In this document: piece by piece, positions 27,101 through 64,000 of the stretch
How positions within the stretch are numbered: the first letter of the stretch is position 1
Layout of the letters: each line of letters begins with the position of its first letter
Source of the DNA: Crossaster papposus
Taxonomy: Eukaryota; Echinodermata; Asteroidea; Velatida; Solasteridae
NCBI GenBank assembly: GCA_037893245.1
Contig: JBAIAA010000025.1
Location: 1,736,001-1,800,000 of the forward strand
Direction: 5' to 3'
Length of the DNA: 64,000 bases
Program-made: the position numbers and the translations under genes
Notes under the pieces: model-generated
What the model saw: the letters and a program-made list of their open reading frames with translations, nothing else
What the model was told of the DNA's origin: nothing
Database searches by the model: none

Positions 27101-30100
27101 AACACCTGAATTGACACCTCATTTGTTCATTTCCGATTTTTACAGCCAGATGTATGACATTTCCTTTGTTTCTGGCGGCCATTTTGGATTTTGGCCGCCA
27201 TCTTGGAAAAATCGGAACCGGTCAAGTGGGTTCCACGGATAAAATCAATAGATAGGTCGAAAAGAAACTCTATGCCAAATTTGGTACTTTTGTCCGGCCG
27301 GTAACATTAAATTTGCTAAGCCACCTGACTATATGTAAAATCCAGACTCCCATTGTTAATGGGAATGTGAACAACAAAGACCGAGTACAGTGAGGCTACA
27401 ATGTAAGTGCACTGCCAATCACACAGGCCCGTACGCAGGATTTGTTATGGGGGTGCGATTTTTGTTGTTGACATTATCGCCTAACCCAAGTCCATTTTGG
27501 GTGCCAATACCGTTATTTCTACATCAAAATACCATCATTTACCCCGGAAATTGTAGACCTTTCGGTAATTTTTGGGGGTGCGTACGTACCCGTCGCATCC
27601 CCCCTGCGTACGGGCCTGCGGTGTGGCTCATCGACGGCACCGCACAATGCCGCAGTGTGAACTATATAGAGTATCCATTCTATGACACACATTATGTTCA
27701 TTTGGTTGGCACCGAGATACAGTACTGTTTGTTTACTTGATAATGGACAGCAATTGTGTTTAAAATCATTGTATTGGTAATGATGAGTTATTGTATTGGT
27801 AACGATGAGTTGTTGTGTTGGTAACGACGAGTTACTGTGTTGGTTAATGATGAGTTTGTGTCCAACAAGCCATTACCGGCTAGTATTGTCGTGCAAGAAC
27901 AATAGGAATACGTCACTGCCTTCGGCTCGATCCATTACCACGCAGTAATAACCGGGTTCTCGCACTGTTATTACCTAATTAATGACCCAATCAAGCCGTA
28001 GGCTTGGCCCGAGCCGAAGGCGAGGCATGCCTGGGGTTTCAGGGGGCCGAGGCGCGTAATTATTTTTCCTAGGAGGGTTAGGGGTAATTATCATAAATGG
28101 GCGGCTCTAGACTGCTCGCGTCATGATTATTCAGTAGTTTTAACAAAGACTCTAATACATTGTTATTGCTCATTCAACTAGTTACACATATCCCCGAGGT
28201 ACATTAAAGCACTTTGAAAAACGGCTTCTGTCGACCTCTCTCATGGTGGCTTAGTGGATAATGGGTTAGGTTATAGATCGTTCGACTGGGTTTCGAATTC
28301 GCTCTCTGCCTATTTTTCATTGACTATTTTTGGTCTCCAAGTTTGTTGTTGGAGTGAGTTTAATTTAAGGGAAAGTAAGGATCTGAGAACATAAGTGTCT
28401 TCCACTCAGTGTGGTGTAGATACGCCCATTTATGATAATTACCCCTAAACCTCCTAGGAAAAAAATTACGCGGCCGGGGCCCCCTGGCGGGGGTTGAAGG
28501 GGCCCCCTTTAGAAAATTTTGACAATTTAGGTACTGAAAAGTACCTAACATCAACATGATTAATACAAACCTGCTTCTATAGGGATGATTGCCACTTTTG
28601 AAACTGGACCCGTACTATGGAGCGCCAAAAGTGGACAACCGTATTTTCTGGTTTTCTGCTAGTCGAATTTTAGGTTTTCAGGAATTGCGACACCTGTTTT
28701 TAAAAGAAATTAGGATTTTACTTTGACTACTATTTTGATGCCTCAAAAGTGGACAACTACAAATCTCGGATTCTTACTAGCACATAATATGATAGTCCAA
28801 AAGTGGACAACCGTATTTTCCGATTTTCTACTAGCGGAAATTTAGATTTTAGAAGTAGCAATACACGTTGTTAAAAATGTCAATTTTCTGCTAGCAGAAA
28901 TTTGGGTTTTACTTTGACGACTTTTCTTGACGCCTCAAAAGTGGACAACTGAAAATCGGTAAATTCTGTTAGTAAATATTCGGGTTGAACTTATTGTAGA
29001 AAACCAAAATCTCTTAGTTTTTGCTAGCAAAAATTTGGTCGTGACCAAACGAACCCTTCTGTTCGAAATAGATCAGTATGCGGGATGTTCACGTCGTCAC
29101 GTTCTCATGATGGGTTTACCTAACCCCTTCAAAGAGTGGACGATTCCGATCTGAGAAGGCTGGTCCAGTAGCCGCTAATCTGACGGCCGGCCCTTTGTAA
29201 TTATTGTACCATTTTTATTGGCGCTTCCCGCTCCAAGAATAAATTCCGCAACAGAAAAAAGGCGGTAAATTGTATTAGATCTTTTTTACTATGGTTTCAT
29301 CTGGGTCTGGATCCTTATACTCTGACAAAACGAATACCCGCACCGCATCAGCGTTTATGACATAAATGATTTTGAATTAACAACTGGACCGAAGCAAAAA
29401 ATGTACCTCAGGTGGTTCTTCACTGCATATTTGATTGCATGAAATGCACTGTAACAGGTACTAGTTAAACCATAGAGAAAGCTGGAATCGCCCAATTGGA
29501 CTACAAAACACGTTTTGAACTAAAATGATGTTCATCGAAAAGATAATTTAAAATAATAGTAGAATTAACATTCACACGACCATCCTTTAAAAACTGCGCG
29601 TTTTGTGTTATCTTGTGTACAACGAGTTTCTGGGGTCAGAAAAGTGACCCCGAAATTCGAGCTGTTTGGGTGTAGTCATGATTCCAGGAAAGTGTTCGCC
29701 TTTTGCGGACGTGTAACAAACTACATGTGTGCATTTGTGCCGTGTGCAAATCATGGGAAGCACACGGCGTGTATTGTACATTGAATGAAAACGACAGGAA
29801 ACATGACTTGTATATGCGTACAACCGGGTGGTTTTTCGTCTTTTCTCCGGAACGGTATAATGAATCAGGTTGGTTTAATTTCAACCAGATGTTTGAAAAA
29901 GGAAACAATCAAAAATATGATATTTGGGTGGATTTCAGATCATAGTTCTGTACCCCTTTAACTAGAACTCAAGACATTTTTGTAAACTGTTATTTTTAAT
30001 CATGTCTCGAACCATGGAGGAAGGTCCTCCATGCTCAACCAGATTCAGAACGTCGCGCGCCAGTATTCGAGAACTCATGCGCACAGCCAAAGGGAGGCAA

Positions 30101-33100
30101 ATTGAGAAAAATCACCCACCCATACTCACACCCTAGTTAAATATACTCTATAATAGTCTATTTCAAACAAAAGGCTCAGGTGTTTTGGGACAATAAATTA
30201 CAGGCCAGATAAACAAAAGAGTTGTTGATCTTTCTTGCCCGACCCTACGAAACACGCCCGACACTAAACTTTTTTGATTTTTGATTTTGAAAACAAAAAC
30301 CAAAAAAACGATCTTAAAAAAAGTCCCGAAATAAGCCCACTCCCATGATTTTGTGACAAACTTAAGTACAATCAAAAACCTGTTAAAAGACCAGTTAATA
30401 AATTCAATCCATTAATCAGAGCTCATTCACTCTGACCTTTTATTCACATGACAACTAAATGAAAGTCAAAGGCTAAATATGCCAAAGTGGGAAAATACAC
30501 ACTTGTACTTAAATAAGGAATATCAAGTTTGATAACGTTTTGTCCCCAAGTCGAGCACAGTGGGGGCGCATGATGATGCCGCCATGACTGAAGACGCGCT
30601 CTACACTGCAAAAACTGTGGTGTTAAATTGTACACCAATGGTGTAACATTTGATTATTTCCTGGTGTTTATTTTGGGCAGGGATTTGGGTGTTGAATAAC
30701 ACCAGTTTGGGAATCAAATTTTTTTAACACCAATTTTGGTGTACACTCTGATAGCAAAATTTAACATGGATATCACGTCATTTGCTCGTCATTCTAGCGA
30801 AAGGATGTACTGTTTTAACACTATAATTTTGTACATATTAACTGCATGGACAAATTACGTAATGAAATATTACCAAGAACTGACTTATTACACATAATAT
30901 GTATAGGCTACAATAATAACCTATTCCTACTGAATACGTACTACACACATAGCTATTGCCGTTGTTAGTTTTATACTACGCTTTTTTGTCCACGACGATG
31001 TCACAACCGTGTTTTTATGAATAATGTCAAAATTTGAAAACGAATAAAATGTAACGCGAATTTTTAACTATGTTTGCACAAAAATCAAAATTCAATCATG
31101 GAATCGTTTAAATAATTACATATTATGGTAAAAAAAATGAATTTTGGGACTAAATACAACAATTTAACATCGACTATTGTTAACATATCCCATAATTCCT
31201 TATCGACCAATCAGAGGGCTTTATTTCACACACGCATGCGCACTAGGTCAAATTTAACACCAAAAGTACGTAACACCAGTACTTGATTTGAAACTGATAC
31301 TTCAAGAATCATTTTACTTCATTTTAACACCAATTTTCATTCCAAAAGATTTAAAAAACATTGGTGTTAAAATTTTAACACCACAGTTGTTGCAGTGTAC
31401 AGATGAACTCGAAGCCGGTACCCCTAATAAACTATTGGTACCACTTTGGCACAAGGTACATGCCAAAATCATATGTTAATTTATCCATGCACGCCCAAGC
31501 CATGTGTAAACAATTTTCCCCTGTGAGTTAGAGTGAATAATACAATCATTTTGAGAAGAAAGTAGTCTTTATTTTATATTTTTACATGTCAACAAAACTC
31601 AATGAAAATTGGAAGAAAAAGAAAAAAAACTCCCTCCCTACCTGAACTTTTAAAAATAAAGGACGCTCAACAACTTTTTGTTACGACTAAAAAGACAACA
31701 AACAGATAACAAAAATAAACTGTGGCAAACAACTGTTCCGTATCTTCACTTATAAGTCGGCAAAACCTTTTGTTTTTCTTTATTTGTTTAGGGCCTACGT
31801 TCCCCTACTGGGGTTGGTTCATTCTAAAGGAAACAACATTTGAATAGGGCGTTTTGTAGATTGCATGCCCAAATGGAAAAAATGCCTACCAAATATACAT
31901 TTGAATTACCGAATATACAGGTACGTCTCGAAAAAGCTCATGTGAATTTGAATGCTGTTTTGTTGAATTGTTAAATTGAACGGTTATTTTGTAAAATTGA
32001 ATGACGCAACGGTACTTTTGACAAGTCATAAAACAAAATCAAATTATCATTTTTAGAAGCATTCGATTTTGCGCGAAAGAATAGCGCTGTGGTTAAATTG
32101 GCTACTCCTTTGCCGAAAATTGACCGGGAGAACCTCAACGACATGCAGTAATAGATAATCCAATAGGAATGTCCATAGCAGACGTAGGCGGGGACGCGTG
32201 ACGGAAGCAACGTCAATTACAAAGGGCCGGCCGTCAGATTAGCTGTACTGGACCAGCCTTCTCAGATCGGAATCGTCCACTCTTTGAAGGGGTTAGGTAA
32301 ACCCATCATGAGAACGTGACGACGTGAACATCCCGCATACTGATCTATTTCGAACAGAAGGGTTCGTTTAGTCACAACCAAATTTTTGCTAGCAAAAACT
32401 AAGAGATTTTGGTTTTCTACAATAAGTTAAACCCGAGAATTTACCGATTTTCAGTTGTCCACTTTTGAGGCGTCAAGAAAAGTCGTCAAAGTAAAACCCA
32501 AATTTCTGCTAGCAGAAAATTTACATTTTTAACAACGTGTATTGCTACTTCTAAAATCTAAATTTCCGCTAGTAGAAAATCGGAAAATACGGTTGTCCAC
32601 TTTTGGACCATCATATTATGTGCTAGTAAGAATCCGAGATTTGTAGTGTCCACTTTTGAGGCATCAAAATAGTAGTCAAAGTAAAATCCTAATTTCTGTT
32701 AGCAAAAAATTGAGTTTTTAAAAACAAGTGTCGCAATTCCTGAAAACCTAAAATTCTACTAGCAGAAAACCAGAAAATACGGTTGTCCACTTTTGGCGCT
32801 CCATACCCGTACGACCAATGAAATGACAATAACTCCGATCAACAACATCGCATCTCAACAATCGAGGTGTCAAAATTATGGTGGCCCTGAAGGGACTACG
32901 CAGATCGTGAATATTGACGTCAATATTCACGACTTTCCTCAAAGTCGCGAATATTGACGTCAAATTTGACGTCAATATTCACGACTTTCCCAAAAAGTCG
33001 CAAATATTGACGTCAAATTTGACGTCGATATTCGCGTCAAATTTCACGACTTTCCCCGAAAGTCGCGAATATTGACGTCAATATTCGCGACTTTCCCCGA

Positions 33101-36100
33101 AAGTCGCGAATATTGACGTCAATATTCGCGACAAAATTCACGACTTTCCTCAAAGTCGCGAATATTGACGTCAATATTGACGACAATATTCACGACTTTC
33201 CCAAAAAGTCGCGAATATGACGTCAAATTTGACGTCAATATTCACGACTTTCCCAAAAAGTCGCGAATATTGACGTCAAATTTGACGTCAATACAACCTA
33301 GGTTTTGGCTAGTCTTGTTCCGGGGCGATCCGGTGATCGCGAATTTATTTTTATAAAATTATATTTTCGGAATAATTACAGGATATCTAGCGCGATCATT
33401 TTGCTGGATGCCTAGAATCATAATTTACCTTCAAATTTACCTTTGAGTTCAGTTCACGAGATTTGTAAGCATTTATCACTTCGGTCACGTCAGTGCAGAA
33501 CTAATACACAGATATAACTGCGTGCAGAACACATGCTGTAAAGGGATATCCTTTTACAAATCAAGTGCTCAGCAGTGCCATAGAATCATAATTTACCTTC
33601 AAATAAAGTAAGATATTTCTTAATAATTCGGTAGTAAATATTTTTGATGGCTGCAAATGGTGTATCCTACCTTTAAGTTCAGTTCACGAGATATGTAAGC
33701 ATTTATCACTTCGGTCACGTCAGTGCAGAACTAATACAGGCAGGGGTTGCATTGACGTCACGCGCGCTACGCGTACGCGCTAATCGCACGAACAACCGGG
33801 CCGAGCGGCTTTTATTGAGGTTAAACAAAGTGCAGACAGTATATGCCGTGATTACGCAACTAGACCTCATTGGGGGCGCTGTCGGGAAGTGCGACGTGCG
33901 TGTGACATCATAATGCATTAACTTTATACACAGGTATAACTGCGTGCAGAACACATGCTGTAAAGGGATATCCTTTTACAAATCAAGTGCTCAGCAGTGC
34001 CATGTCAAATTTTACCTTAAATATTTTTGATGTCTGCAAATGGTGTATCCTATCTTTAAGTTCAGTTCACGAGATTTGTTTCTGAACTTGAAACAAATCC
34101 ACTGATCTCTCGTGACAATCGAGGGCGCCCTCAATAAGCCCGTTTTCTGAGTATGGATGATCGACGAACGGACGGCGCGCCCCCGACAAATGAAAAACTC
34201 AGTCTTGGAGCAAGACTAGCCAAAGCCTAGCTTGTGGAAAAAAATTCGCGTCAAAATATTTGCGACTTTGGGGGCAAGTCGCGAATATTGACGTCATATT
34301 TGACGTCAATATTCGCGACTTTTGGGGAAAGTCGTGAATATTGACGTCAAATTTGACGTCAATATTCGCGACTTTTGGGTAAAGTCGTGAATATTGACGT
34401 CAATATTGACGTCAATATTCGCGACTTTGAGGAAAGTCGTGAATTTTGTCGCGAATATTGACGTCAATATTCGCGACTTTCGGGGAAAGTCGTGAAATTT
34501 GACGCGAATATCGACGTCAAATTTGACGTCAATATTCGCGACTTTTTAGGGAAAGTCGTGAATATTGACGTCAAATTTGACGTCAATATTCGCGACTTTG
34601 AGGAAAGTCGTGAAATTTGTCGTGAATATTGACGTCAATATTCACGATCTGCGTAGTCCCTTCAGGGCCACCATACAAAATACACAGAACAAAAGTATGC
34701 ACTGGGTTATTGGCTTCGAGTAATCCATACCCATTAGCTCATTTTTAAGTGTCTCGGTTATTTTTGTGATGAGTTTATAATCGTGTCGTTAGCGGGCGCA
34801 CTGCGTGAAAAGAATACGCGATGTACACGATCGAGCAAACGCGTTCGTCTTCAGTTTGGCAAAAACGTAGGCCGCGGACTACTTACGCACTGCTAAACTT
34901 TCGTAAAACTGTCGTAAGCGAAATGTTGCACAGGGGGGGGGGGGGGGGGGGGGGGTTCTCTCCGTCCCATGTATTGCTTCATTATTATGACGGGTTAGTA
35001 AACTATAGAAGGCCCAGCGCTGTAAAGAATAGTTATTGATACAAAAAACCACCAATATTTATTGATACAACATAATCAATAAACGTTACAAAATACTTTC
35101 TCAACATAAAGTTGCCAACCACGGCTACAGCATTTTTTTGAATGCGCTCGTGACACTCCCATGTAAAATGGAGGCAATGTTTACAAAATAATACCAGTAC
35201 ATGTAGTATTTCTTTGTCTGTTTGTCGACTCTCTTAATTGCGTTTTCACACAAAAATATAACAGGAAACAGACACTTGAATTGAAGTAAGATGGCGTATG
35301 CGGTATAGACTCCCCAACGCTCAATTTCTTTCTGCTGAGATACTTGTGCACGGCCGAAGCACATACCTCGTTTCAGACTGTAGTACTTGTAGTGTAGTAT
35401 CTTTACCGTTAGTCTATAATTCGACGTGACTGAACGTTTGACTCCTGCTCCTATATAGGCCAAATCAATTCCACATATGAAATGTATTCCTTGTGTTCCA
35501 GACAGCATCATACAGCGGGAGCCATTCCACTGTTCCAATTAAAAATGTGTTTTGATAGGGCAGCCATGACCACAGCTTGGCCATGCAAGTAGGCGTATAC
35601 TACAATAATATAATGGCTATCACACACGCTGTTCTACCATGCTGATTTCCCTAGTCACAAACATGCGGTCATAAAAATAGTTTTGAGACGGGAGTGCGGA
35701 GTACACTTTTAAATTCAACCACTACCGTAGTACCGATTACTGACATTTCGTTTTCAATTTTACTATGCGTCATTGTTTTCAAGGCCAGGATCACAGCTCA
35801 GCGTGTGCCCATTTTCAAGCTGGTTTCCCAGATCGTCTGTTGGGCAAACAATATGATAAATTGTTCCTACCTGTTTGCTTGGCCGCCATGTCCATTACAA
35901 AGCACGTAACTCCCATTTATTCCCTTAGTCGTGTGCATTTTATCCAATTTCAAAGCTGGATCGTATCCAAAACGGCTGTCACGTGCGTGAAAAGTATCAA
36001 ACGCTATACCGGCCTTCACTATAGCACTGTTTATGCCCTTTAAATACACGTCCGATGCACAAATACCACAACAACGTACCCATGCACATGTATTTCCAGC

Positions 36101-39100
36101 TACGGTATAATATTCATAAAGGCCGCATACCCCTTGACGTCACAATTCTTTGAAAGGGGGAAGTATAATGGCCGTGGGTTTAACTAAGGTTTTTTTTCAA
36201 CTTCTCTGGCATTTCGGCTTCAGGGTCGGTTCTGCTTTAATTTACATCCTCTAAAACAAATGGAGTGACGCTATACTGAGACTTATCTCTTTTGATAGGA
36301 TGTCCCAGCTAAACAAGGTTCTTGTTTAAACAGACTGTATTTTGCGGAGTCACGGGGACTAAAAACATACGATGTCGTTTCAAAGCATATGACGAGTGAA
36401 TAATAGTTACGAAGATAATTTGTTTTTTGTTAATCTAAGTTAAATCTTGTCTGTATTGGTGTTTTTTTTATATAAATAACTGCTCTTTGCAGCGCTGGGC
36501 CTTCTATAGTTTACTAACCCGTCATATGAAGCAATACATGGGACGGAGAGATCCCCCCTCCTTTGTGGTGGTCATTGTGCTTGCGGAATGTTGTGGTTTC
36601 TTTTGAGGTTTTTGGTCTGCAGTCTGCGGTCTTTTATTTTATATAAAAAAATGATCGTTTTTGCCAACCGTAAATTTGTGACAGTAGGCCTATACCGTTT
36701 CAACCCATATTTGTATCGAATTATTATTATTATATTATTAACCTACTAGGCGGTCACCCGGGGTTTGTCGGTTCTCGGGTTTGTAGCTACTTCCCTGGAT
36801 GGATGGGGATTGTGGATACATGTTGACTCTATCATGGAGGTGCCAAATAAAAATGTTGAAAGAAACACATTCACAAATATCTATATTGTAGACTTCTTCC
36901 CGTGACACTACTACTTGTCAGTAACGAATCACTGCAATCCTGCAAAAAGCTTTAGCACTACCAACACTATTCCAATAATAAGTTTTGGTGACAGGATATA
37001 CATTATCATGTTCATATATTAAATGTATAGTTAAGCCATTTGAAACATGTCGAGGCACCTCGTGCCTCCAAAGGGGGGACGTTTTATGTTGGGGGTAATG
37101 AACTGTGTTTGGGGGTACAAATCTTTTTCTCACGGTCTCACTGGACACACATATCAAAGATTTAAACATTCTGGCTATTTTATGTATTTTTTTAAGGACA
37201 TCCATTGCAAGCATGTAAACATTGAAATAAGTATTGCGCAATACAGACATGAAACAGCCATATGATACAAATAACAACGACCAACAGCTCTAACTACCCC
37301 CCAGGGGATATCTGGGTGGCGATTGATAACAGCTGTGTTTGTTCTCTACCAAGGCCGCTCAAAGAGATGTCAGCGACTTTTTTTGACAGCGGCTAAACAC
37401 AAAGGGATCAGATTTCGATTTGTCTGCACAACTCTATGGCTTTTGGCCCAAACTATTATTTTGAAGGGATGTTTCACCCCCTGAATGACCTCCTGGGTTA
37501 GATTTTTTTCCCAGTCCATTAGCCCGATAGGACAAACTTTGAAAATTCGACCCTTAGACGACCTTTGACCCCAGAAGACCCGAAAAACGCTAACCCGTTT
37601 TATTTTTGGCACGCTCACCTCGCATCGAGCATGCATTGCGATCACCGAGTTTAAGCACGATCCGACCAACTTCAAAAAGGTGACCCCTAGATGACCTTTG
37701 ACCTCCCCCCAGGGGATATCTGGGTGGCGATTGATAACAGCTGTGTTTGTTCTCTACCAAGGCCGCTCAAAGAGATGTCAGCGACTTTTTTTGACAGCGG
37801 CTAAACACAAAGGGATCAGATTTCGATTTGTCTGCACAACTCTATGGCTTTTGGCCCAAACCATTATTTTGAAGGGATGTTTCACCCCCTGAATGACCTC
37901 CTGGGTTATAATTTTTTTCCCAGTCCATTAGCCCGATAGGACAAACTTTGAAAATTCGACCCTTAGACGACCTTTGACCCCAGAAGACCCGAAAAACGCT
38001 AACCCGTTTTATTTTTGGCACGCTCACCTCGCATCGAGCATGCATTGCGATCACCGAGTTTAAGCACGATCCGACCAACTTCAAAAAGGTGACCCCTAGA
38101 TGACCTTTGACCTCCCCCCAGGGGATATCTGGGTGGCGATTGATAACAGCTGTGTTTGTTCTCTACCAAGGCCGCTCAAAGAGATGTCAGCGACTTTTTT
38201 TGACAGCGGCTAAACACAAAGGGATCAGATTTCGATTTGTCTGCACAACTCTATGGCTTTTGGCCCAAACCATTATTTTGAAGGGATGTTTCACCCCCTG
38301 AATGACCTCCTGGGTTAGAATTTTTTTCCCAGTCCATTAGCCCGATAGGACAAACTTTGAAAATTCGACCCTTAGACGACCTTTGACCCCGGAAGACCCG
38401 AAAAACGCTAACCCGTTTTATTTTTGCCACGCTCACCTCGCATCGAGCATGCATTGCGATCACCGAGTTTAAGCACGATCCGACCAACTTCAAAAAGGTG
38501 ACCCCTAGATGACCTTTGACCTCGTACGCTCTAGCAAATGCAAACTGGTTCTTGCGGGGACCGAGCCGGACCCACCCACCGAGTTTGAACGCCGCACGAC
38601 CCCGGGAAGGGGACGAAAAAGCGCGCACAGACAGACACACAGACAGACAGACAGAGAGTAGCGTATTATTATATAGATATATAGATAGATAGATAGATAG
38701 ATTCACAATAGGTTAAACCTTAATATCAGTTTTAGCGAGAGAGTTATGCATACGTAGCAAATAAAAGAAAGCACGTTTGTGGAGGCTGCGCACAGACTGC
38801 TTGTAGCCTACTCTTTTTTTCACCTCAAGACATGTTTACATTTTGCATTCAGATGTCACTGCATATTTATAATGTAGTGGCAATAAGTAAAAATAAATGG
38901 GAACCATTTAGTAGAATATATAAATGCTATGACTACATTACTACACGTGGGCGATATTCCCGCCATGATGAAGTTACGGTTTCACAGAGGTAATTAGCTC
39001 AAATAAAAATGGCATTAATAAAAAAAGTAGTTGTCTGCATATGGCATTAGACGAATTTAATTTCTGAATAAAAAGATTGGGCATAGAGGAGACAAAATCG

Positions 39101-51405: not shown

Positions 51406-52334
51406 CTTGGTCGTCTGCTAGCTGGTGTGCCTCGTACTCCGTCACTGTGGCCCACCCATACGTACTGGAATCCGCCAGTCGAATCAACTTCTGACGCTTG
51501 TCGATTGCCTCCAGTGCTTTCGTCAGGGTAGCTTGTATCTCTACATCCGTCGTAGCGGAGGGATCCACCAACTCTTCTTTGGCCGTTTGAATCAACTCTC
51601 TAACCTCTCTGTACAAAAGAAAATTACAATCATTCATTATTTTTTTTTTATTTATTTTTTTTTTTTTTTTTTTTTTTTTTGACGATGCGCTGCTTGTGCC
51701 GAACCAACCTGAAGTGTCTCTCCTACCACACCCTGTACCAGGAATTCCACCCTGTAGCTGGAATTCCTATTTGCATATCAATATGGGCCCCTCGCCACCA
51801 CGCTGTTGACAGCGAATAGCGTGCCCATACAACGTGAAGAAAACAAATATGTTCTAATTCACACCTGGTCGTTCAACCGAACATATTTATATTTCTTCCC
51901 TAAGATGCACAATTCACATAATAAAGGACAAACTGCACACCAGTTTGGGATTTGGTTGGTGTATTTCGGCCCGTAGGACGGCTGCCTACAAAGGCTATGC
52001 CTACTGAAGGTTAAAGAAGGCCGGTAGCTGTCGAGCATGCACAAAATGTGCCTTAAAGTCATTATTGCATTTAATTGAAATTATATCAAAAAGCAAATAT
52101 GTATAACTTAGCTGACACTTGCAGATTAAAATCAAACTGCCTGTGATTGCCCTCCCGTCGCCACTTGGTTTTGGCCGAATCTTTCAGCTTCTGGTTCAGT
52201 GACGTCGCCGTCTTCGACTGTGAATCCAACACTTCTGCCTTGGTGCTCTTCAATTTTTGGTCGAATGCATGCGTAAGCTCGGATAACATAGCTTTGATAT
52301 CCTCTTTGGTGGCTGGCTGATCCTCAGGATTCAT
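51101..52334 (-). CDS. DIRS gag-like region (two blocks around the repeat joint)
   Basis: The block at about 52086-52334 begins MNPEDQPATKEDIKAMLSEL and has a Lys-rich helical pattern. The block at about 51101-51637 has a Lys/Arg-rich middle and a zinc knuckle, ACFICGSFAHWKASC (C-x2-C-x4-H-x4-C). The repeat joint lies between them. Part of the fossil element. Confidence 0.75.
51681..51892 (-). repeat. DIRS 212-bp repeat, inner copy
   Basis: Identical by eye to 52404-52615. It begins GACGATGCGCTGCTTGTGCC. Confidence 0.95.
51893..52008 (-). repeat. DIRS 116-bp repeat, inner copy
   Basis: Identical by eye to 47708-47823. It directly abuts the inner 212-bp repeat. Confidence 0.95.
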
Positions 52335-52403
52335 TATCGCTAAGGTATAGGCCTAGTTACAACGTAGGAGTACTGCCTGGTTGAAAACTGAGAGAGATTT
52401 TTT

Positions 52404-52615
52404 GACGATGCGCTGCTTGTGCCGAACCAACCTGAAGTGTCTCTCCTACCACACCCTGTACCAGGAATTCCACCCTGTAGCTGGAATTCCTATTTGCATA
52501 TCAATATGGGCCCCTCGCCACCACGCTGTTGACAGCGAATAGCGTGCCCATACAACGTGAAGAAAACAAATATGTTCTAATTCACACCTGGTCGTTCAAC
52601 CGAACATATTTATAT
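52404..52615 (-). repeat. DIRS 212-bp repeat, outer copy
   Basis: Outer partner of 51681-51892. It marks the 5' end of the element on the minus strand. Confidence 0.95.
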
Positions 52616-54089: not shown

Positions 54090-54235
54090 GAAGTGCAACA
54101 TGGCGTCACTGCTGTGAGCCAATGAAATGTCCAGTTGTAGAGGTCAGTGGATTTACCAACCAACTGAACTTTACACCTGGACATTTCATTGGCTCACAGA
54201 GTGACTTCGTGGGTCCGCCATGTTGCACTTCTCTG
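54090..54235. repeat. Foldback repeat with perfect 22-bp inner arms
   Basis: The arms at 54113-54134 and 54177-54198 (TGAGCCAATGAAATGTCCAG and complement) are exact. The outer AAGTGCAACATGGCG pairs with CGCCATGTTGCACTT through a few mismatches. Confidence 0.8.
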
Positions 54236-54715: not shown

Positions 54716-54757
54716 AGCTGTTTCGGCATTTCAGCCGAAACAGCTTTTTTTTTCGTT

Positions 54758-54795
<38 letters not shown>

Positions 54796-54994
54796 CTGTT
54801 TCGGTTTTTCACCGAAACAGCTTTTGTTTTCGTTAAAGTTTTTTTTAGCTGTTTCGGTTTTTCACCGAAACAGCTTTTGTTTTCGTTAAAGTTTTTTTTT
54901 TTCTTTTTTTAGCTGTTTTGGCCTTTCAGCCGAAACAGCTTTTGTTTTCGTTAAAGTTTTTTTTAGCTGTTTCGGCATTTCAGCCGAAACAGCT
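54716..54994. repeat. Hairpin-module cluster 1 (5 copies)
   Basis: Hairpins start at 54716, 54794, 54847, 54911 and 54965. Copies 1 and 5 have arms ending GGC/GCC with loop ATTTCA. Copies 2 and 3 end GGT/ACC with loop TTTTC. Copy 4 has one T.G wobble. Poly-T separates them. Confidence 0.92.
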
Positions 54995-55020
54995 ATTGTT
55001 TTCGTTAAAGTTTTTTTTAT

Positions 55021-55049
<29 letters not shown>

Positions 55050-55053
<4 letters not shown>

Positions 55054-57380
55054 CCACTTTCAGACTTTTTCTCATAGGATTTGTACACGTTTCGTTCAGC
55101 CAATACACTTTGACACTTTGGTAGATCCGATCGACTTTAGACTTGGCATACATTTAGACAACCACGCAAGGACGGTCCTAGAAGAAATTCGTCGCGATTA
55201 CGTCATTCATGGTCACGTGACGTCACGTTAAAGGTGCAATTTTTCCCCATAGGTTTTGTACACGTTTTCATCCAGACTATTGACTTTGACACTTTAGTAA
55301 ATCCGATTGACCTAAAAGTTAGCACACACCTCAACCACCATCCTCAGAAGGGCCAATATGAAAATCGCCATGATGACGTCATCGGGGGTCATGTGACGTC
55401 ACATTAAAGGTTCAGTTTTTAGGAGCCTCTAACTCTGGAAGTACAAGTCCGATTAGTGTCAAACTTGGTATACAGGTATTCCGGGATGTGTTATATACGA
55501 AAATTAAGGTGACGTCGTAATGACGTCATAACGACGTCATGTGACGTCACATTAAAGGTGTAGTTTTCCCCATACGATTTGTACACGTTTTTTCACCCGA
55601 TATATATTTGGCACTTTGGTAAATCCGATCGACTTCAGACTTGGCTAGCTACTCTTAGCATACTACCCACGGATGATTCTAGAAGAAATTCGTCACGATT
55701 ACGTCATTCATGGTCACGTGACGTCACGTTAAAGGTTCAGTTTTCCCCCTTAGGTTTTGTACACGTTTTCATCAAGACTATTGACTTCGACACTTTAGTA
55801 AATCCGATTGACCTAAAAGTTAGCGCACACCTCAACCACCATCCTCAGAAGGGCCAATATGAAAATCGCCATGATGACGTCATCGGGGGTCATGTGACGT
55901 CACATTAAAGGTCAGTTTTTAGGACCCTCTATCTCTGGAAGTACAAGTCCGATTAGTGTCAAACTTGGTATACAGGTATTCCGGGATGTGTTATATACGA
56001 AAATTAAGGTGACGTCATAATGACGTCATAACGACGTCGTGTGACGTCACATTAAAGGTGTAGTTTTCCCCATAAGATTTGTACACGTTTTTTCACCCGA
56101 TATATATTTGGCACTTTGGTAAATCCGATCGACTTCAGACTTGGCTAGCTACTCTTAGCATACTACCCACGGATGATTCTAGAATAAATTCGTCACGATT
56201 ACGTCATTCGTGGTCACGTGACATCACGTTAAAGGTGCAGTTTTTTCCCCATAGGTTTTGTACACGTTTTTCTTCAGACTATTGACTTTGACACTTTGGT
56301 AAATCCGATCGACTTCCGACTTAGCACACACTTCGATCGCCATCCCCAGGAGGGCCAAGATAAAAATCGTCATTATGACGTCTTCGTGGGTCATGTGACG
56401 TCACATTAAAGGTGCATTTTTTTGGACCCTCTATCTCTGGAAGTACAGGTCCGATTGTGCTCAAACTTGGTTTACAGGTATTCCGGGATGTGCTATAAAT
56501 ATAAATGGAGGTGATGGCATGATGACGTCATCGGGTGTAATGTGGCGTCACCTTAAAGGTGTAGTTGTTAAGACCCTCTATCTCTAGAAGTACAGGTCCG
56601 ATTGGGGTCAAACTTGGTATGCACGTATTCCGGGATGTGTTATAGGTATACATTGAGCTGACGTAATGATAACGACATCGGGTGTCATGTGACGTCACAT
56701 TAAAGGTGAGTTTTCAAGACCATCTATCTCTGAAAGTACAAGTCCGATTTGGGTCAACATTGATACGCAAGTATTTCGGGATGTGTTATAGGTATTAATT
56801 GGGGTCACGTCATGATTATGTCATCGGGTGTAATGAGATGTCACATTAAAGGTGTATTTGTTATAGTTTTAGATGAATGTTTTTGTCATTTTTGTCACTT
56901 TCAGACTTTTTCCCATAGGATTTGTACACGTTTTTTCAGCCAATACACTTTGACACTTTGATAAATCCGATCGACTTGAGACTTGGTATGCATTTAGACA
57001 ACCACCCAAAGACGGTCCTAGAAGAAAGTCGTCGCGATTACGTCATTCAAGGTCACGTGACTTCGCGTCAAAGTTGAAATTTTCCCCATAGGTTTTGTAC
57101 ACGTTTTTCTTCAGACTATTGACTTTGGCACTTTGGTAAATCCGATCGACTTGAAACTTGGCATACCTTTAGAACATCACTCACAGATGGTTCTGGAAGA
57201 AATTCGGCACGATTGCGTCATTCAAGGTCATGTGACGTCACGTTAAAGGTTCAATTTGGCCCCCATAGGTTTTGTACACGTTTTTCGTTAGACTATTGAC
57301 TTTGACACTTTCTTAAATTTAATCGACTTGAGACTTTGCACACACATAGACCACCACACACACATATTGAAAATAATGTA
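55050..57380. repeat. Longest monomer array
   Basis: Monomers of about 160-180 bp share TTTGTACACGTTTTT, TTGACTTTGACACTTT, AAATCCGATCGACTT and TCACGTGACGTCACGTTAAA. A second type (near 55430, 55920, 56410, 56570 and 56710) reads CTCTATCTCTGGAAGTACA. A higher-order duplication of ~490 bp links 55240-55720 and 55730-56220. Confidence 0.88.
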
Positions 57381-57436
57381 AGACACTCGAAACAGCTCTG
57401 TGTTTGTCCACAAACACATGTCTAGTTTTTCTTTGT

Positions 57437-57770
57437 AGCTGTTTCGGTTTTTCACCGAAACAGCTTTTGTTTTCGTTAAAGTTTTTTTAGCTGTTTCGGT
57501 TTTTCACCGAAACAGCTTTTGTTTTCGTTCTGGTTTTTTTTTTTTTTTTTTTTTAGCTGTTTCGGTTTTTCACCGAAACAGCTTTTGTAATCGTTAAAGT
57601 TTTTTTTTTTCTTTTTTTAGCTGTTTCGGTTTTTCACCGAAACAGCTTTTGTTTTCGTTAAAGTTTTTTTTTTTTTAGCTGTTTCGGTTTTTCACCGAAA
57701 CAGCTTTTGTTTTCGTTCTGGTTTTTTTTTTTTTTTTTTTTAGCTGTTTCGGTTTTTCACCGAAACAGCT
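57437..57770. repeat. Hairpin-module cluster 2 (6 copies)
   Basis: Hairpins start at 57437, 57489, 57555, 57619, 57677 and 57742. All have identical 12-bp arms and loop TTTTC. Spacers are the fixed tail plus poly-T of varying length. Confidence 0.92.
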
Positions 57771-57788
57771 TTTGTTTTCGTTAAAGTT

Positions 57789-57820
<32 letters not shown>

Positions 57821-58723
57821 TGTTTTTTTTTTTTTCACTTTCAGACTTTTTCCCATAGGATTTGTACACGTTTTTTCAGCCAATACACTTTGACACTTTG
57901 GTAAATCCGATGGACTTGAGACTTGGCATATACTTAGACAACCACCCAAAGACGGTCCTAGAAGAAATTCGTCGCGATTACGCCATTCAAGGTCACGTGA
58001 CTTTGCGTTAAAGGTTAAATTTTTCCCATAGGTTTTGTACACGTTTTTCTTCACACTATTGACTTTGACACTTTGGTACATCCGACCGACTTGAAACTTG
58101 GCATACACTTAGAACATCACCCACGGATGGTCTTGGAAGAAATTCGGCACGATTGCGTCATTCAAGGTCACGTAACGTCAAGTTAAAGTTTCAATTTTTT
58201 CCCCCATAGGTTTTGTACACGTTTTTCTTTAGACTATGACTTCGACACTTTCGTAAATTTGATCGACTTGAGACTTGGCACACACTTAGAACATCACTCA
58301 TATATGGTTCTGGAAGAAATTCGGCACGATTGCGTCATTCAAGGTCACGTGACGTCACGTTAAAGGTTCAATTTGTCCCCCATAGGTTTTGTACACGTTT
58401 TTCTTTAGACTCTTGACTTTGACACTTAGTAAATCCGATCGACTTGAGACTTGGCACACACATAGACCACTATCCACAGACGGTCGTAGGAGAAATTTGG
58501 CCCGATTACGTCATTCAAGGTCACGGGGCGTCACGTTAAAGGTTCAATTTTCCCCCATAGGTTTTGTACACGTTTTTCTTTAGACTATTGACTTTGACAC
58601 TAGTAAATCTGATCGACTTGAGACTTGGCACACACAAAAGACCACCACATACACATTGAAAGTAACTTTGGACACTCGAAACAGCTCTGTGTTTGTCCAC
58701 AAACACATGTCTAGTTTCTTTTT

Positions 58724-58887
58724 AGCTGTTTCGGTTTTTCACCGAAACAGCTCTTGTAATCGTTAAAGTTTTTTTTTTTCTTTTTTTTTTTTAGCTGTTT
58801 CGGTTTTTCACCGAAACAGCTCTTGTTTTCGTTCTGGTTTTTTTTTTTTTTTTTTTTTAGCTGTTTCGGTTTTTCACCGAAACAGCT
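58724..58887. repeat. Hairpin-module cluster 3 (3 copies)
   Basis: Hairpins start at 58724, 58793 and 58859. Tails alternate between CTTGTAATCGTTAAAG and TTGTTTTCGTTCTGG. Confidence 0.92.
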
Positions 58888-58901
58888 ATTGTTTTCGTTC
58901 T

Positions 58902-58945
<44 letters not shown>

Positions 58946-60454
58946 CTTTTGTTTTCCATAGGATTTGTACACGTTTGTTCAGACAATACACTTTGACACT
59001 TTGGTAAATCCGATGGACTTGAGACTTGGCATACACTTAGACAACCACCCAAGGACGGTCCTAGAAGAAATTCGTCGCGATTACGTCATTCAAGGTCACG
59101 TGACTTAGCGTTAAAGGTGAAATTTTCCCCATAGGTTTTGTACACGTTTTTCTTCAGACTATTGAATTTGACACTTTGGTCAATCCGACCGACTTGAAAC
59201 TTGCCATACACTCAGAACACCACCACCAGATTTTTCTGAAAGAAATTCAGCACGATTGCGTCATTCAAGGTCACGTGACGTCAAGTTAAAGGTTTAATTT
59301 GTCCCCCATAGATTTTGTACACGTTTTTCTTTAGACTCTTGACTTTGACACTTAGTTAATCCGATCGACTTGAGACTTGGCACACACATAGACCACCATC
59401 CACAGACGGTCGTAGGAGAAATTTGGCACGATTACGTCATTCAAGGTTACGGGGTGTCACGTTAAAGGTTCAATTTTCCCCCATAGGTTTTGTACACGTT
59501 TTTCTTTAGACTATTGACTTTGACACTTTAGTAAATCTGATCGACTTGAGACTTTAGTAAATCTGATCGACACATAAAAGACCATCACACACATATTGAA
59601 AGACACTCGAAACAGCTCTGTGTTTGTCCACAAACACATGTCTATTTTTTTTTTTTTTTTTTTCCTTTTGTTCTTCATAGGATTTGTACACGTTTGTTCA
59701 GACAATACACTTTGACACTTTGGTAAATCCGATGGACTTGAGACTTGGCATACACTTAGACAACCACCCAAGGACGGTCCTAGAAGAAATTCGTCGCGAT
59801 TCCGTCATTCAAGGTCACGTGACTTCGCGTTAAAGGTGAAATTTTCCCCATAGGTTTTGTACACGTTTTTCTTCAGACTATTAAATTTGACACTTTGGTC
59901 AATCCGACCGACTTGAAACTTGCCATACACTCAAAACACCACCACCAGATGTTTCTGAAAGAAATTCAGCACGATTGCGTCATTCAAGGTCACGTGACGT
60001 CAAGTTAAAGGTTTAATTTGTCCCCCATAGGTTTTGTACACGTTTTTCTTTAGACTCTTGACTTCGACACTTAGTAAATCCGATCGACTTGAGACTTGGC
60101 ACACACATAGACCACCATCCACAGACGGTCGTAGGAGAAATTTGGCACGATTACGTCATTCAAGGTCACGGGGTGTCACGTTAAAGGTTAAATTTTTCCC
60201 CATAGGTTTTGTACACGTTTTTCTTTAGACTATTGACTTTGACACTTTAGTAAATCTGATCGACTTGAGACTTTAGTAAATCTGATCGACACACAAAGGA
60301 CCATCACACACATATTGAAAGACACTCGAAACAGCTCTGTGTTTGTCCACAAACACATGTCTAGTTTTTAGCTGTTTCGGTTTTTCACCGAAACAGCTCT
60401 TGTAATCGTTAAAGTTTTTTTTTTTCTTTTTTTTTTTTTTCTTTTTTTTTTTTT

Positions 60455-61890
60455 CCTCTTTCAGACTTTTCTCCATAGGATTTGCACACGTTTTTTCAGA
60501 CAATACACTTTGACAGTTTAGTAATTCCGATCGACTTGAGACTTGGCATACATTTAGACAACCACCCAAAGACGGTCCTAGAAGAAATTCGTCGCGATTA
60601 CGTCATTCAAGGTCACGTGACTTCGCGTTAAAGGTGAAATTTTTCCCATAGGTTTTGTACACGTTTTTCTTCAGACTATTGACTTTGACACTTTAGTAAA
60701 TCCGACCGACTTGAAACTTGGCATACCCTTAGAACACCACCCCCAGATGTTCCTGAAAGAAATTCGGCACAATTGCGGCATTCAAGGTCACGTGACGGCA
60801 CCTTAAAGGTTCAATTTTCCCCCCATAGGTTTTGTACACGTTTTTCCTCAGACTATTGACTTTGGCACTTTGGTAAATCCGATCGACTTGAGACTTGGCA
60901 TACCTTTAGAACATCACTCATAGATGGTTCTGAAAGAAATTCGGCACGATTGCGTCATTCAAGGTCATGTGACGTCACGTTAAAGGTTAAATTTGTCTCC
61001 CATAGGTTTTGTACACGTTTTTCTTTAGACTATTGACTTTGACACTTTCGTAAATTTGATCGACTTGAGACTTGGCACACACATAGACAACCACACACAC
61101 ATATTGAAAATAATGGAAGACACTCGAAACAGCTCTGTGTTTGTCCACAAACACATGTCTAGTTTTTTCTTTTTTTTTTTTTCCTCTTTCAGACTTTTCT
61201 CCATAGGATTTGCACACGTTTTTTCAGACAATACACTTTGACAGTTTAGTAATTCCGATCGACTTGAGACTTGGCATACATTTAGACAACCACCCAAAGA
61301 CGGTCCTAGAAGAAATTCGTCGCGATTACGTCATTCAAGGTCACGTGACTTCGCGTTAAAGGTGAAATTTTCCCCATAGGTTTTGTACACGTTTTTCTTC
61401 AGACTATTGACTTTGACACTTTAGTAAATCCGACCGACTTGAAACTTGGCATACCCTTAGAACACCACCCCCAGATGTTCCTGAAAGAAATTCGGCACAA
61501 TTGCGGCATTCAAGGTCACGTGACGGCACCTTAAAGGTTCAATTTTCCCCCCATAGGTTTTGTACACGTTTTTCCTCAGACTATTGACTTTGGCACTTTG
61601 GTAAATCCGATCGACTTGAGACTTGGCATACCTTTAGAACATCACTCATAGATGGTTCTGAAAGAAATTCGGCACGATTGCGTCATTCAAGGTCATGTGA
61701 CGTCACGTTAAAGGTTAAATTTGTCTCCCATAGGTTTTGTACACGTTTTTCTTTAGACTATTGACTTTGACACTTTCGTAAATTTGATCGACTTGAGACT
61801 TGGCACACACATAGACAACCACACACACATATTGAAAATAATGGAAGACACTCGAAACAGCTCTGTGTTTGTCCACAAACACATGTCTAG
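60455..61890. repeat. 728-bp tandem duplication
   Basis: 60455-61162 and 61183-61890 match almost base for base at an offset of 728. Each unit runs from CCTCTTTCAGACTTTTC through four monomers to the CTAG terminal module. It is the most recent event in the array. Confidence 0.92.
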
Positions 61891-62447
61891 TTTCTTTTTT
61901 TTTCCACTTTCAGACTTTTTCCCATAGGATTTGTACACGTTTTTTCAGCCAATACACTTTGACACTTTGATAAATCCGATCGACTTGAGACTTGGTATAC
62001 ATTTAGACAACCACCCAAAGACGGTCCTAGAAGAAATTCGTCGCGATTACGTCATTCAAGGTCACGTGACTTTGCGTCAAAGGTGAAATTTTCCCCATAG
62101 GTTTTGTACACGTTTTTCCTCAGACTATTGACTTTGGCACTTTGGTAAATCCGATCGACTTGAAACTTGGCATACAATAAGAACACCACCCCAGATGTTT
62201 CTGAAAGAAATTTGGCACGATTGCGTCATTCAAGGTCACGTGACGTCACATTAAAGGTTCAAATTTTTCTCTCATTGGTTTTGTATACGTTTTTCTTTAG
62301 ACTATTGACTTTGACACTTTCGTAAATTTGATCGACTTGAGACTTGGCACACACATAGACCACCACACACACATATTGAAAATAATGTAAGACACTCGAA
62401 ACAGCTCTGTGTTTGTCCACAAACACATGTCTAGTTTTTTTTTTTTT

Positions 62448-62540
62448 AGCTGTTTCGGTTTTTCACCGAAACAGCTTTTGTTTTCGTTAAAGTTTTTTTT
62501 TTTTTTTTTTTAGCTGTTTCGGTTTTTCACCGAAACAGCT
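62448..62540. repeat. Hairpin-module cluster 4 (2 copies)
   Basis: Hairpins start at 62448 and 62512, with the standard arms and tail. A single hairpin of the same kind starts at 60370. Confidence 0.92.
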
Positions 62541-62584: not shown

Positions 62585-62612
62585 GGCTTTTTCGCTAAAA
62601 AGCGAAAAAGCC
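62585..62612. repeat. Variant hairpin, different sequence, same design
   Basis: GGCTTTTTCGCT and AGCGAAAAAGCC (12-bp arms) surround loop AAAA. It is followed by the same style of tail (TTTGTTTTTCTTCTG) and T-rich tract, then CCCATAAATCGCATAGACTT and TTTGTACACGTTTC as in the monomers. Confidence 0.9.
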
Positions 62613-62640
62613 TTTGTTTTTCTTCTGTTTGTTTTTTTTC

Positions 62641-64000
62641 TTCTTCTTGTTCTTGTCCCATAAATCGCATAGACTTTGTACACGTTTCTTCTGGAGGTCA
62701 CTTTTGTCATTAAACATACTTCAATTTCATTGAAACTTTGCACATACTCAGAACTCATACTGAGCTAGTGCCTAAAACTCGGATGTCATCATGACGTTAT
62801 AACGTGACACGTGACGTCATCTTAAAGTTTTAATAATTTAATCTTTGAAAATCTATACAAAATCAACCGCGAAAGACCGTAACTAGATGTTTGTGGGAAT
62901 CGATAGAATAATTAAGGATCTTCATTTTATCTCGTGTGCGTAAAATCACGTGACCCTTCCTTCCGGTCCAAACCGGAAGTGGCTTATAATTTGAAAGTGG
63001 AAAATGATTTGAACTTACTTTCAACGATGTTAGTCTCTAGCTAGGCTGCGCTCTCCAAAAAAGTGACCGGTGACGTCATAAATTGTTTTAGCGCCCTCTA
63101 GCGGCAGGTTGAAAAATGTTTAAAATGAATAATCAGTTGATGTGTGTGGCGAAGTTTGTTCAAATCACTTTATAACTGATGTATATAATCAGCTTCATGA
63201 TAGGAACAGGTTGACGGAAAGAAAAAAATATGACGTCACCAGACCGGAAGTTATAATGAAATTACCTCTTTTCCTTTAAAAATACCTAAAAAATTAACCC
63301 AGACAGATATAATCTTGTTTTTTGCTCTAAAGGTTAATGTAAAAGTACTTCTCAAACTTCCCTGTGTTTTGTAGCAAAAGGCGAACTTGGACATACCCTG
63401 AGACACCCTTGAAATTTCATGTTTTATGTCCTTGATTGCACGGCGCCAGTATACGTGTACATTGTATTGAGCGTACTTGCACGTACGATGTCAGTACGCT
63501 CCATACATTGTACAATAGAGAAGGGAAGGAGGGACACTGGTATCCATTTGTACGGTGACATGTGAAACACGAGAGTCATCAACATAGGCCACGAGGAAGG
63601 GCGCCGCTTATGGCAGGTAGGTAAACGTGCCTTCGGCAACGCAGAACTACGCGTGAATTATACATGTACCATATAATAGATGTACGCGAACTTTTGCACA
63701 AGTACTTTTAACAGAAAACAAATTGGTATTCTCATCAAACTTAACCTCCGTAAATACTCTATAGTGCACTCGTGCCTTGCGGACAGGCGTCGTGATGACG
63801 TCACCATGGGTCACGTGACGTCGTCTTAAACGTGCAATAGATTTAATGTTTGAAAATTAATAAAAAAATCAACCGCGTATGATCGGAACTTGAAGTTTGT
63901 GGGAATTGATATAATATTAAATCCATGATCTTCATTTTATCTCGTGTGCGTGAAATCCCGTGACCCTTCCTTCCGGTCGAAACCGGAAGTGGCTTATAAT
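62641..64000. repeat. Related repeat family with a ~1-kb direct repeat
   Basis: About 205 bp at 62790-63000 reappear at 63796-64000 with substitutions. Shared landmarks are CTTCATTTTATCTCGTGTGC, GTGACCCTTCCTTCCGGTC and AACCGGAAGTGGCTTATAAT. No gene is seen. The right edge is outside the window. Confidence 0.75.

Follow-up and report, generated by a model that had tools for sequence, protein, structure and literature searches.

The 64,000-nt stretch of Crossaster papposus DNA analyzed here (the window; contig JBAIAA010000025.1, positions 1,736,001 to 1,800,000) carries, from 54716 onward, an array of hairpins, T tracts and tandem repeats that is a stack of non-autonomous Helentrons (HINEs), which we call family A. 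Each element begins (AGCT or GGCT) with a left end, L, a palindromic subterminal inverted repeat (subTIR) hairpin of the form AGCTGTTTCGG-loop-CCGAAACAGCT that carries a tail of ~16 nt and then a T tract; central tandem repeats follow, and the element closes with a right end, R, of the form CGAAACAGCT-CTGTGTTTGTCCACAAACACA-TGTCTAG. The original prediction, made from the letters alone, had placed 17 hairpins, more than 30 monomers of ~175 bp and seven terminal modules with a CTAG end within 54716-62476. All 17 hairpins exist, but only 16 lie wholly inside those bounds (the 17th is at 62512-62540). The repeat motif TTTG[TC]ACACGT gives 33 matches in the array, many at 173-179-bp spacing, as predicted, and some central repeats are double units of 322/323 bp. 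The seven R modules were likewise found, but the third ends CTAT instead of CTAG. The left edge is sharp (TATAGTT|AGCTGTTT, starting AGCTG at 54716). The right edge, however, had been set too short at 62476: the array goes on right of 62585 with a second family and is unfinished at coordinate 98800, 34.8 kb outside the window (window numbering is used throughout for this contig).

All parts of the array described here, including every R module, are on the + strand. Five L are stacked at 54716-54994, followed by a tail and internal poly-T tract that we propose as a landing pad (54995-55053), by the central repeats of the innermost element of this stack (55055-57387) and by R1 (57388-57425), which like its successors comprises the 3' subTIR, a palindrome and the terminal motif. 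Next come a stack of six L (57437-57770), an internal poly-T tract (57786-57835), central repeats (57837-58676) and R2 (58677-58714). A stack of three L (58724-58887) then precedes central repeats of the GCCTTTTGTT subtype (58945-59607; the direct partner of the L at 58859) and R3, the CTAT variant (59608-59645), with further central repeats (59663-60326; the bracket partner, as explained below, of the L at 58793) running up to R4 (60327-60364). A single L (60370-60398) is followed by central repeats (60455-61124) and R5 (61125-61162), by central repeats assigned as bracket partner to the L at 58724 (61183-61852) and R6 (61853-61890), and by central repeats (61904-62396) and R7 (62397-62434). 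The last stack, of two L (62448-62540), finds its bracket-assigned repeats and R (at 65730 and 85392) only to the right of a family-B HINE with subTIRs GGCTTTTTCGC/GCGAAAAAGCC, which lies inside the poly-T of the preceding family-A element, fills the rest of the window (62585-64000) and has its 3' end at 64899-64943, outside it.

The genome assembly comprises 1.02 Gb in 1,841 contigs; its COX1 (contig C1841), judged by eye at conserved positions, fits best with the echinoderm mitochondrial code (AAA = Asn, ATA = Ile), which makes an echinoderm host likely. Searches of this assembly revealed that family A is abundant and dispersed. R ends number 10,737 with up to two mismatches allowed (5,620 and 5,117 on the two strands), and L hairpins with exact arms, which are palindromic so that both strands give the same places, number 9,168; the assembly may keep both haplotypes in places (contigs C725 and C88 are near-identical), and these copy numbers are possibly inflated. 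Across the genome, the reversed control patterns matched nowhere (0), whereas R had 10,737 matches and one L loop variant 5,681 (at most two mismatches); a chance origin is thereby excluded. In 805 cases the CTAG of an R end is followed by TT and then a non-T base. The 708-bp unit at 61183-61890 has 101 matches; among the best 40 candidates scored, at least 35, itself included, are 99-100% identical over at least 695 bp, and they lie on 31 contigs. The many copies at 99-100% indicate that the family moved recently.

The prediction that these units are mobile was borne out by seven solitary copies that share the same pair of sharp ends and measure 595-1276 bp (one each at loci L012, L015, L016, L022 and L034, two at L014). 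TT precedes L and follows R in all seven, a T run lies close to L in all seven (longest pure run 8-22), and their longest ATG frames are 41-63 aa. For empty sites, the flanks of each of the seven insertions were joined minus one TT and the genome was searched, with the best 40 candidates scored. Gap-free sites emerged for two of the seven insertions: at least 11 places for L016 (10 at 100% and 1 at 99%, over 138 bp) and at least 29 for L015, all at 99% (25 over 138 bp, 4 over 136 bp). The joined flanks of the other five had no match among the 40 candidates scored, all of which were L015 or L016 sites. For these two insertions, the gap-free sites demonstrate that the ends are exact and that the net change is two additional Ts, where a 2-bp TT duplication is indistinguishable from two element-borne Ts. 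The insertion at L034 has a 16-bp direct repeat of flank on either side (TTGTCTTAGATGTTAT), perhaps a pre-existing local repeat; by eye, the remaining six solitary copies are without one.

Canonical Helitrons have a 5' TC end and insert in AT. The elements described here have a 3' hairpin, a CTAG (CTRR) end and a Rep/PIF1 helicase in common with them, but there is no 5' TC start, insertion is in TT and not AT, and an endonuclease is present (see below for the coding partner); the AGCT/GGCT start and TT insertion rule out a canonical Helitron. The predicted Helitron- or Helentron-like design instead resolves into the plan of a HINE. Palindromic subTIRs are present (L begins TT|AGCTGTTTCGG, and the R subTIR begins 38 nt before the CTAG end), and the two members of the pair match over 10-11 bp in family A and exactly over 11 bp in family B. 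A 3' palindrome, TGTGTTTGT-CC-ACAAACACA, stands 3 nt upstream of CTAG and folds with DNA parameters. Insertion is in TT without a target site duplication in seven of seven solitary copies, and the ~175-bp central repeats come with no coding capacity (frames of at most 63 aa). Judging by the protein family, both HINE and Helentron would move by rolling-circle transposition. The accessible sections of the papers that we cite give the same order for HINEs, namely 5' subTIR, complementary inverted repeat, simple tract, central repeats, 3' subTIR and palindrome, and the same TT preference with a variable number of Ts (PMC7492417, PMC4067079). Cg_HINE of Crassostrea gigas (PMC7492417) shares the 5' subTIR with its complementary inverted repeat, the simple tract, the 3' subTIR and the palindrome, and likewise has central repeats (140-180 bp) and TT insertion with no target duplication. 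Its simple tract, however, consists mostly of 4-base motifs, whereas here the poly-T is itself the insertion target; Cg_HINE is also described as mostly dispersed, in arrays of at most five monomers. DINE-1/HINE elements and their Helentrons (PMC4067079) resemble the present ones in having palindromic subTIRs and a 3' stem-loop, in their clustering and in inserting at T-rich sites where the number of Ts varies, while here there are ~10,000 ends, many of them within nested arrays.

Insertion of an element in the T tract right of an L requires that L and R pair like brackets. Consistent with this, L and R are equal in number at ten of the eleven loci for which both edges could be seen: a 7:7 locus on contig C17, (((()(())))()), with no family-A repeats outside it; a 3:3 locus on C1, (()()); a 2:2 locus on C3 near 1.76 Mb, (()), next to an antisense array; and the seven solitary elements, each (). 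These loci were taken from the first contigs listed, some chosen for moderate size, and are not a random sample; two loci were excluded from the eleven, one on C18 near 0.78 Mb and one on C7 near 2.61 Mb (C7b), where 2 L and 2 R are seen and the repeats continue rightward, the right edge being out of view. A five-L stack with antisense tails (locus L018, reverse strand, 385-652) is separated by ~220 bp from a normal nest of two elements, placing two arrays back to back.

Stacks of 5' ends with no 3' ends between them could also arise by rolling-circle tandemisation, in which a circle without a 3' terminator is copied repeatedly and inserted as a concatemer that has many 5' ends but a single 3' end, a model reportedly due to Xiong et al. 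2016. It is presented in the accessible part of a review (PMC12628747), and Fusarium Helitrons with circular forms and multiple 5' ends provide a precedent (PMC5148889). Such a process is contradicted by the balance of ten of the eleven loci and by the near parity of L and R genome-wide (9,168 with no mismatch versus 10,737 with two allowed). It is also at odds with the differing L subtypes in one stack, of which the outer ones match repeats further right, and with the elements of other families inside the poly-T. We consider it extremely unlikely as the origin of the stacks.

L tails, L loops and repeat starts all fall into subtypes, and L within one stack differ in subtype, which allows the bracket partners to be compared. 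We assigned L to repeat starts from 29 uninterrupted elements, always leaving out the same locus, and compared the score of the bracket pairing with 20,000 shuffles within loci; unmatched ends and pairs with less than 80 bp of repeat were skipped in all runs. The first test used 18 sources, excluding overlapping loci and several further non-overlapping ones; the window array was ended at 85.5 kb to drop tandem duplicates, and 850 bp containing an antisense array were cut from L018. The 23 interrupted (i.e., nested) pairs scored 0.792 versus 0.752 (standard deviation 0.009) in shuffles, a score reached by 1 of 20,000 shuffles, and reversed pairing scored 0.733. The window array by itself (12 pairs) gave 0.765 versus 0.700, again reached in 1 of 20,000. 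The result persisted when only tails were scored (67 of 20,000), when the first 25 nt of the repeats were removed (1 of 20,000), when other non-overlapping loci were added (24 pairs; 6 of 20,000) and when the window array was extended to 98.8 kb (30 pairs; 163 of 20,000). The fit between the subtypes of bracket partners is real but imperfect.

Tandem duplication has also left its mark on the array. The adjacent units at 60455-61162 and 61183-61890 are identical at 707 of 708 positions, and a ~4.1-kb block at 86.4-94.6 kb is repeated at 99.8% identity over 3,564 bp; this later segmental tandem duplication was absent from the original prediction. Both findings favor ordinary satellite growth, in which a single insertion took place and everything else arose through unequal crossing-over and block-wise segmental duplication. 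As a full account, however, it is very unlikely: it is confronted by thousands of copies, two-ended solitary copies, empty sites, subtypes interleaved in bracket order and nested elements of other families, interleaved and observed with TT boundaries. Furthermore, the bracket test still holds after removal of the three pairs that are possible tandem copies (38 of 20,000 shuffles for all pairs, 129 of 20,000 for the window array). Satellite growth clearly adds to the growth of the array but does not start it.

In the studied array, a family-B and a family-C HINE both lie between a family-A L and family-A repeats with their R, i.e., in family-A poly-T. These insertions and the bracket test back the predicted repeated insertion of the units into their own poly-T. 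A Rep/helicase element sharing both ends, also foreseen, was found for the sister family B, a HINE of which nests in this array. A profile search with PF14214 gave 150 scored matches among 273 candidates, many in open frames of more than 3,000 aa. One frame on contig C553 runs for 3,428 codons without a stop (G000:C553:1384925-1395208, - strand; loci L051, L052 and L064), antisense to the element ends. The 3,333 of its 3,428 aa that were scanned contain PF14214 (Helitron_like_N; 8.5e-35) and PIF1 (1.6e-30) domains, and the last 231 aa match Exo_endo_phos (3.5e-9); long PRT/TMN-rich repeats occur near its N-terminus. These domains join Rep and a PIF1 helicase to an AP (apurinic/apyrimidinic)-like endonuclease at the C-terminus and identify the C553 element as a Helentron, of which the C-terminal endonuclease is a published mark (PMC4067079). 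The DINE-1/Helentron partner has such an endonuclease as well, and one Drosophila partner has a minus-oriented open reading frame (ORF), as here, whereas the partner of 3,428 codons in a ~34-kb element compares with 1,881 aa in a mite (PMC4067079). For Cg_HINE, according to the accessible part of PMC7492417, an autonomous Helentron could not be related, whereas here one is linked to family B.

The C553 element is bounded by family-B ends, GGCTTTTTCGC...GCGAAAAAGCC on the left and GCGAAAAAGCC...CTGTTCACAGAACAG...TTTCTAG on the right, ~34 kb apart (C553:1378966-1412926) with other repeats inside. The first ~0.9 kb of the window-side family-B element and the first 1.4 kb of the family-C element match the left part of the C553 element (86% and 91%, respectively), other genome copies share 1.43 kb with that part at up to 97%, and segments of the right part recur in family B (~87-90%). 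From this similarity we read HINE-B as a probable internal-deletion relative of the C553 Helentron, of which a sister copy or allele is present on C206. The C553 element itself appears to sit in family-A poly-T: an R of family A and a T tract adjoin its left end, and its right end is bordered by a T tract with family-A repeats. Of the left ends still open before it, the innermost carries the tail ATTGTAATCGTTAAGA. Because an unsplit element on C7 with this same tail runs into CTCCTTCAGACTCTTCTCCATAGGGTTTGTACACG, the repeat start that follows the right end in C553, these flanks are most simply interpreted as the two halves of one family-A element, although a second L subtype also accompanies the CTCCTTCAGACTCTTCTCCATAGGGTTTGTACACG repeat start. 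On C206 (L069 380-424), a family-B right end is followed by (TTC)n and by what resembles the beginning of family-B repeats, an arrangement suggesting that this family also nests in its own T/TTC tract.

Rep matches also occur at other loci. Among the matches listed, two further ones on C18 lie between family-A ends of the same arrays, on the opposite strand; the ends on C18 are scattered over ~160 kb. A related giant frame on C890 (L054/L055), which besides Rep, PIF1 and endonuclease domains has OTU, Herpes_teg_N-like and PHD domains, was considered as a possible partner but rejected, as a pattern search found no family-A, -B or -C ends in 20 kb. Twelve Helitron_like_N loci of the 150 scored (L039-L050) lack family-A ends, which carries little weight at their size of ~3.5 kb each. 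A second, higher-scoring Helitron_like_N group (191-217 bits; C17:878247, C259:1497934 and others of L039-L050) perhaps represents canonical Helitrons.

Taken together, these data make it very probable that the array is a stack of HINEs built by self-insertion into their own poly-T, plus later tandem duplication. Helentrons insert between T and T, so that an element with an internal T tract would carry its own preferred target. A new copy entering the poly-T of an old one would leave the arrangement L ... [new copy] ... repeats-R, and repeated nesting would pile up L to the left and repeats-R units to the right, with one common orientation set by the strand of the Ts. The Helentron protein would cut between Ts, and an internal T tract would offer it many sites, favoring insertion into older copies; since every insertion would add a new T tract, targets would multiply with copies. 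The same poly-T pad has received elements of the related families B and C and, in at least one case, an autonomous-looking Helentron of ~34 kb, and unequal exchange would later duplicate multi-element blocks into satellite-like arrays. Family A is presumably moved by a Helentron protein, either B-like or of an unseen A type, and the poly-T would be chosen because of the T-T preference of this enzyme.

Several observations weigh against this interpretation. The array on C3 near 1.79 Mb has 2 L and 5 R, the sole unbalanced locus of the eleven, and the excluded C18 locus has 1 L and 3 R, its left edge being out of view and repeats extending leftward too; no missing left ends emerged in C3, C18 or C7 when these were screened for hairpins followed by T-rich tails. 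A single T follows CTAG at the right edges of two arrays (L020/L021 on C3, and L005 on C725). For the 11 pairs outside the window array, where there is little to shuffle, 5,037 of 20,000 shuffles reach the score, and the bracket test is powerless once all window data are removed. Where a choice exists, the bracket partner scores above the average of the alternatives in 14 of 18 cases, and in 13 of 18 and 15 of 24 in wider sets; the window pair starting at 57677 scores no higher than its alternatives. Some of the array arose by recent tandem duplication, and no autonomous copy with family-A ends was found. Finally, the window array still has nine open L at 85.5 kb, with its right edge beyond view.

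This last excess of L is also what composite transposition predicts. According to this model (from the accessible part of PMC5148889), a nested stack is mobilized whole, everything between its leftmost 5' end and the first 3' end moving together; this would come on top of nesting, and many stacks would therefore be copies of stacks. The ten balanced loci show no L excess, however, and genome-wide the L count is not above that of R, as counted under unequal criteria. As the main source of the stacks composite transposition is unlikely, yet it could still contribute at a low rate.

The window contains other repeats to the left of the array. A 42-nt inverted repeat with a 4-nt spacer (54112-54199) lies immediately next to it. 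Further away are identical 218-bp direct repeats 723 bp apart (51675-51892 and 52398-52615), either long terminal repeat-like or a small duplication, and a 409-bp unit in three copies at 99% (37297-38523). A GACGTC-rich unit of ~53 bp forms two arrays, at 32914-33293 and 34255-34647, whose orientations seem to be opposed as in foldback arms, and ~160-bp tandem units, again in apparently opposite orientations, flank a short spacer at 25978-26477 and 26855-27209.

Much of the biology described here is in print. The accessible sections of the papers above report central repeats in HINEs, TT targeting and clustering (PMC7492417, PMC4067079), endonuclease-bearing partners and reversed frames (PMC4067079, PMC5148889), self-insertion giving multiple 5' ends (PMC5148889) and Helitron loci inserted in one another (PMC12628747). 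Among the nearest known systems are the FoHeli Helitrons of Fusarium oxysporum, for which self-insertion, multiple 5' ends and a reversed ORF are also proposed, although from few cases in a fungus (PMC5148889), whereas here there are many copies, two-sided brackets and mixed families. The shuffled Helitron/satellite loci of C. gigas are truncated, tandemised and inserted in other elements, as here, but the part of PMC12628747 consulted describes neither a bracket rule nor a poly-T target. Neither a two-sided bracket analysis nor an element-internal tract as target appeared in the literature searched, a scope that left out most subscription papers. The element type is thus known and the clarity of its nesting unusual; what is new is the bracket test, together with the interpretation of the T tract as a landing pad. 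We regard it as probable, though less than assured, that family A has incorporated its own target, such that the poly-T near the 5' end makes each insertion a fresh pad, the family expands as copies nest in one another and in their relatives, the brackets record the order of insertion, and satellites of more than 100 kb are seeded in this way.

The conversion of transposons to satellites is mostly inferred from static sequence. With L and R as brackets, the order of insertion can be read from an array and tested statistically. In addition, a HINE family that bears tandem repeats (family B) is linked here to a full Rep-helicase-endonuclease element. Together, these data suggest a simple positive feedback, in which an element carries its own target.

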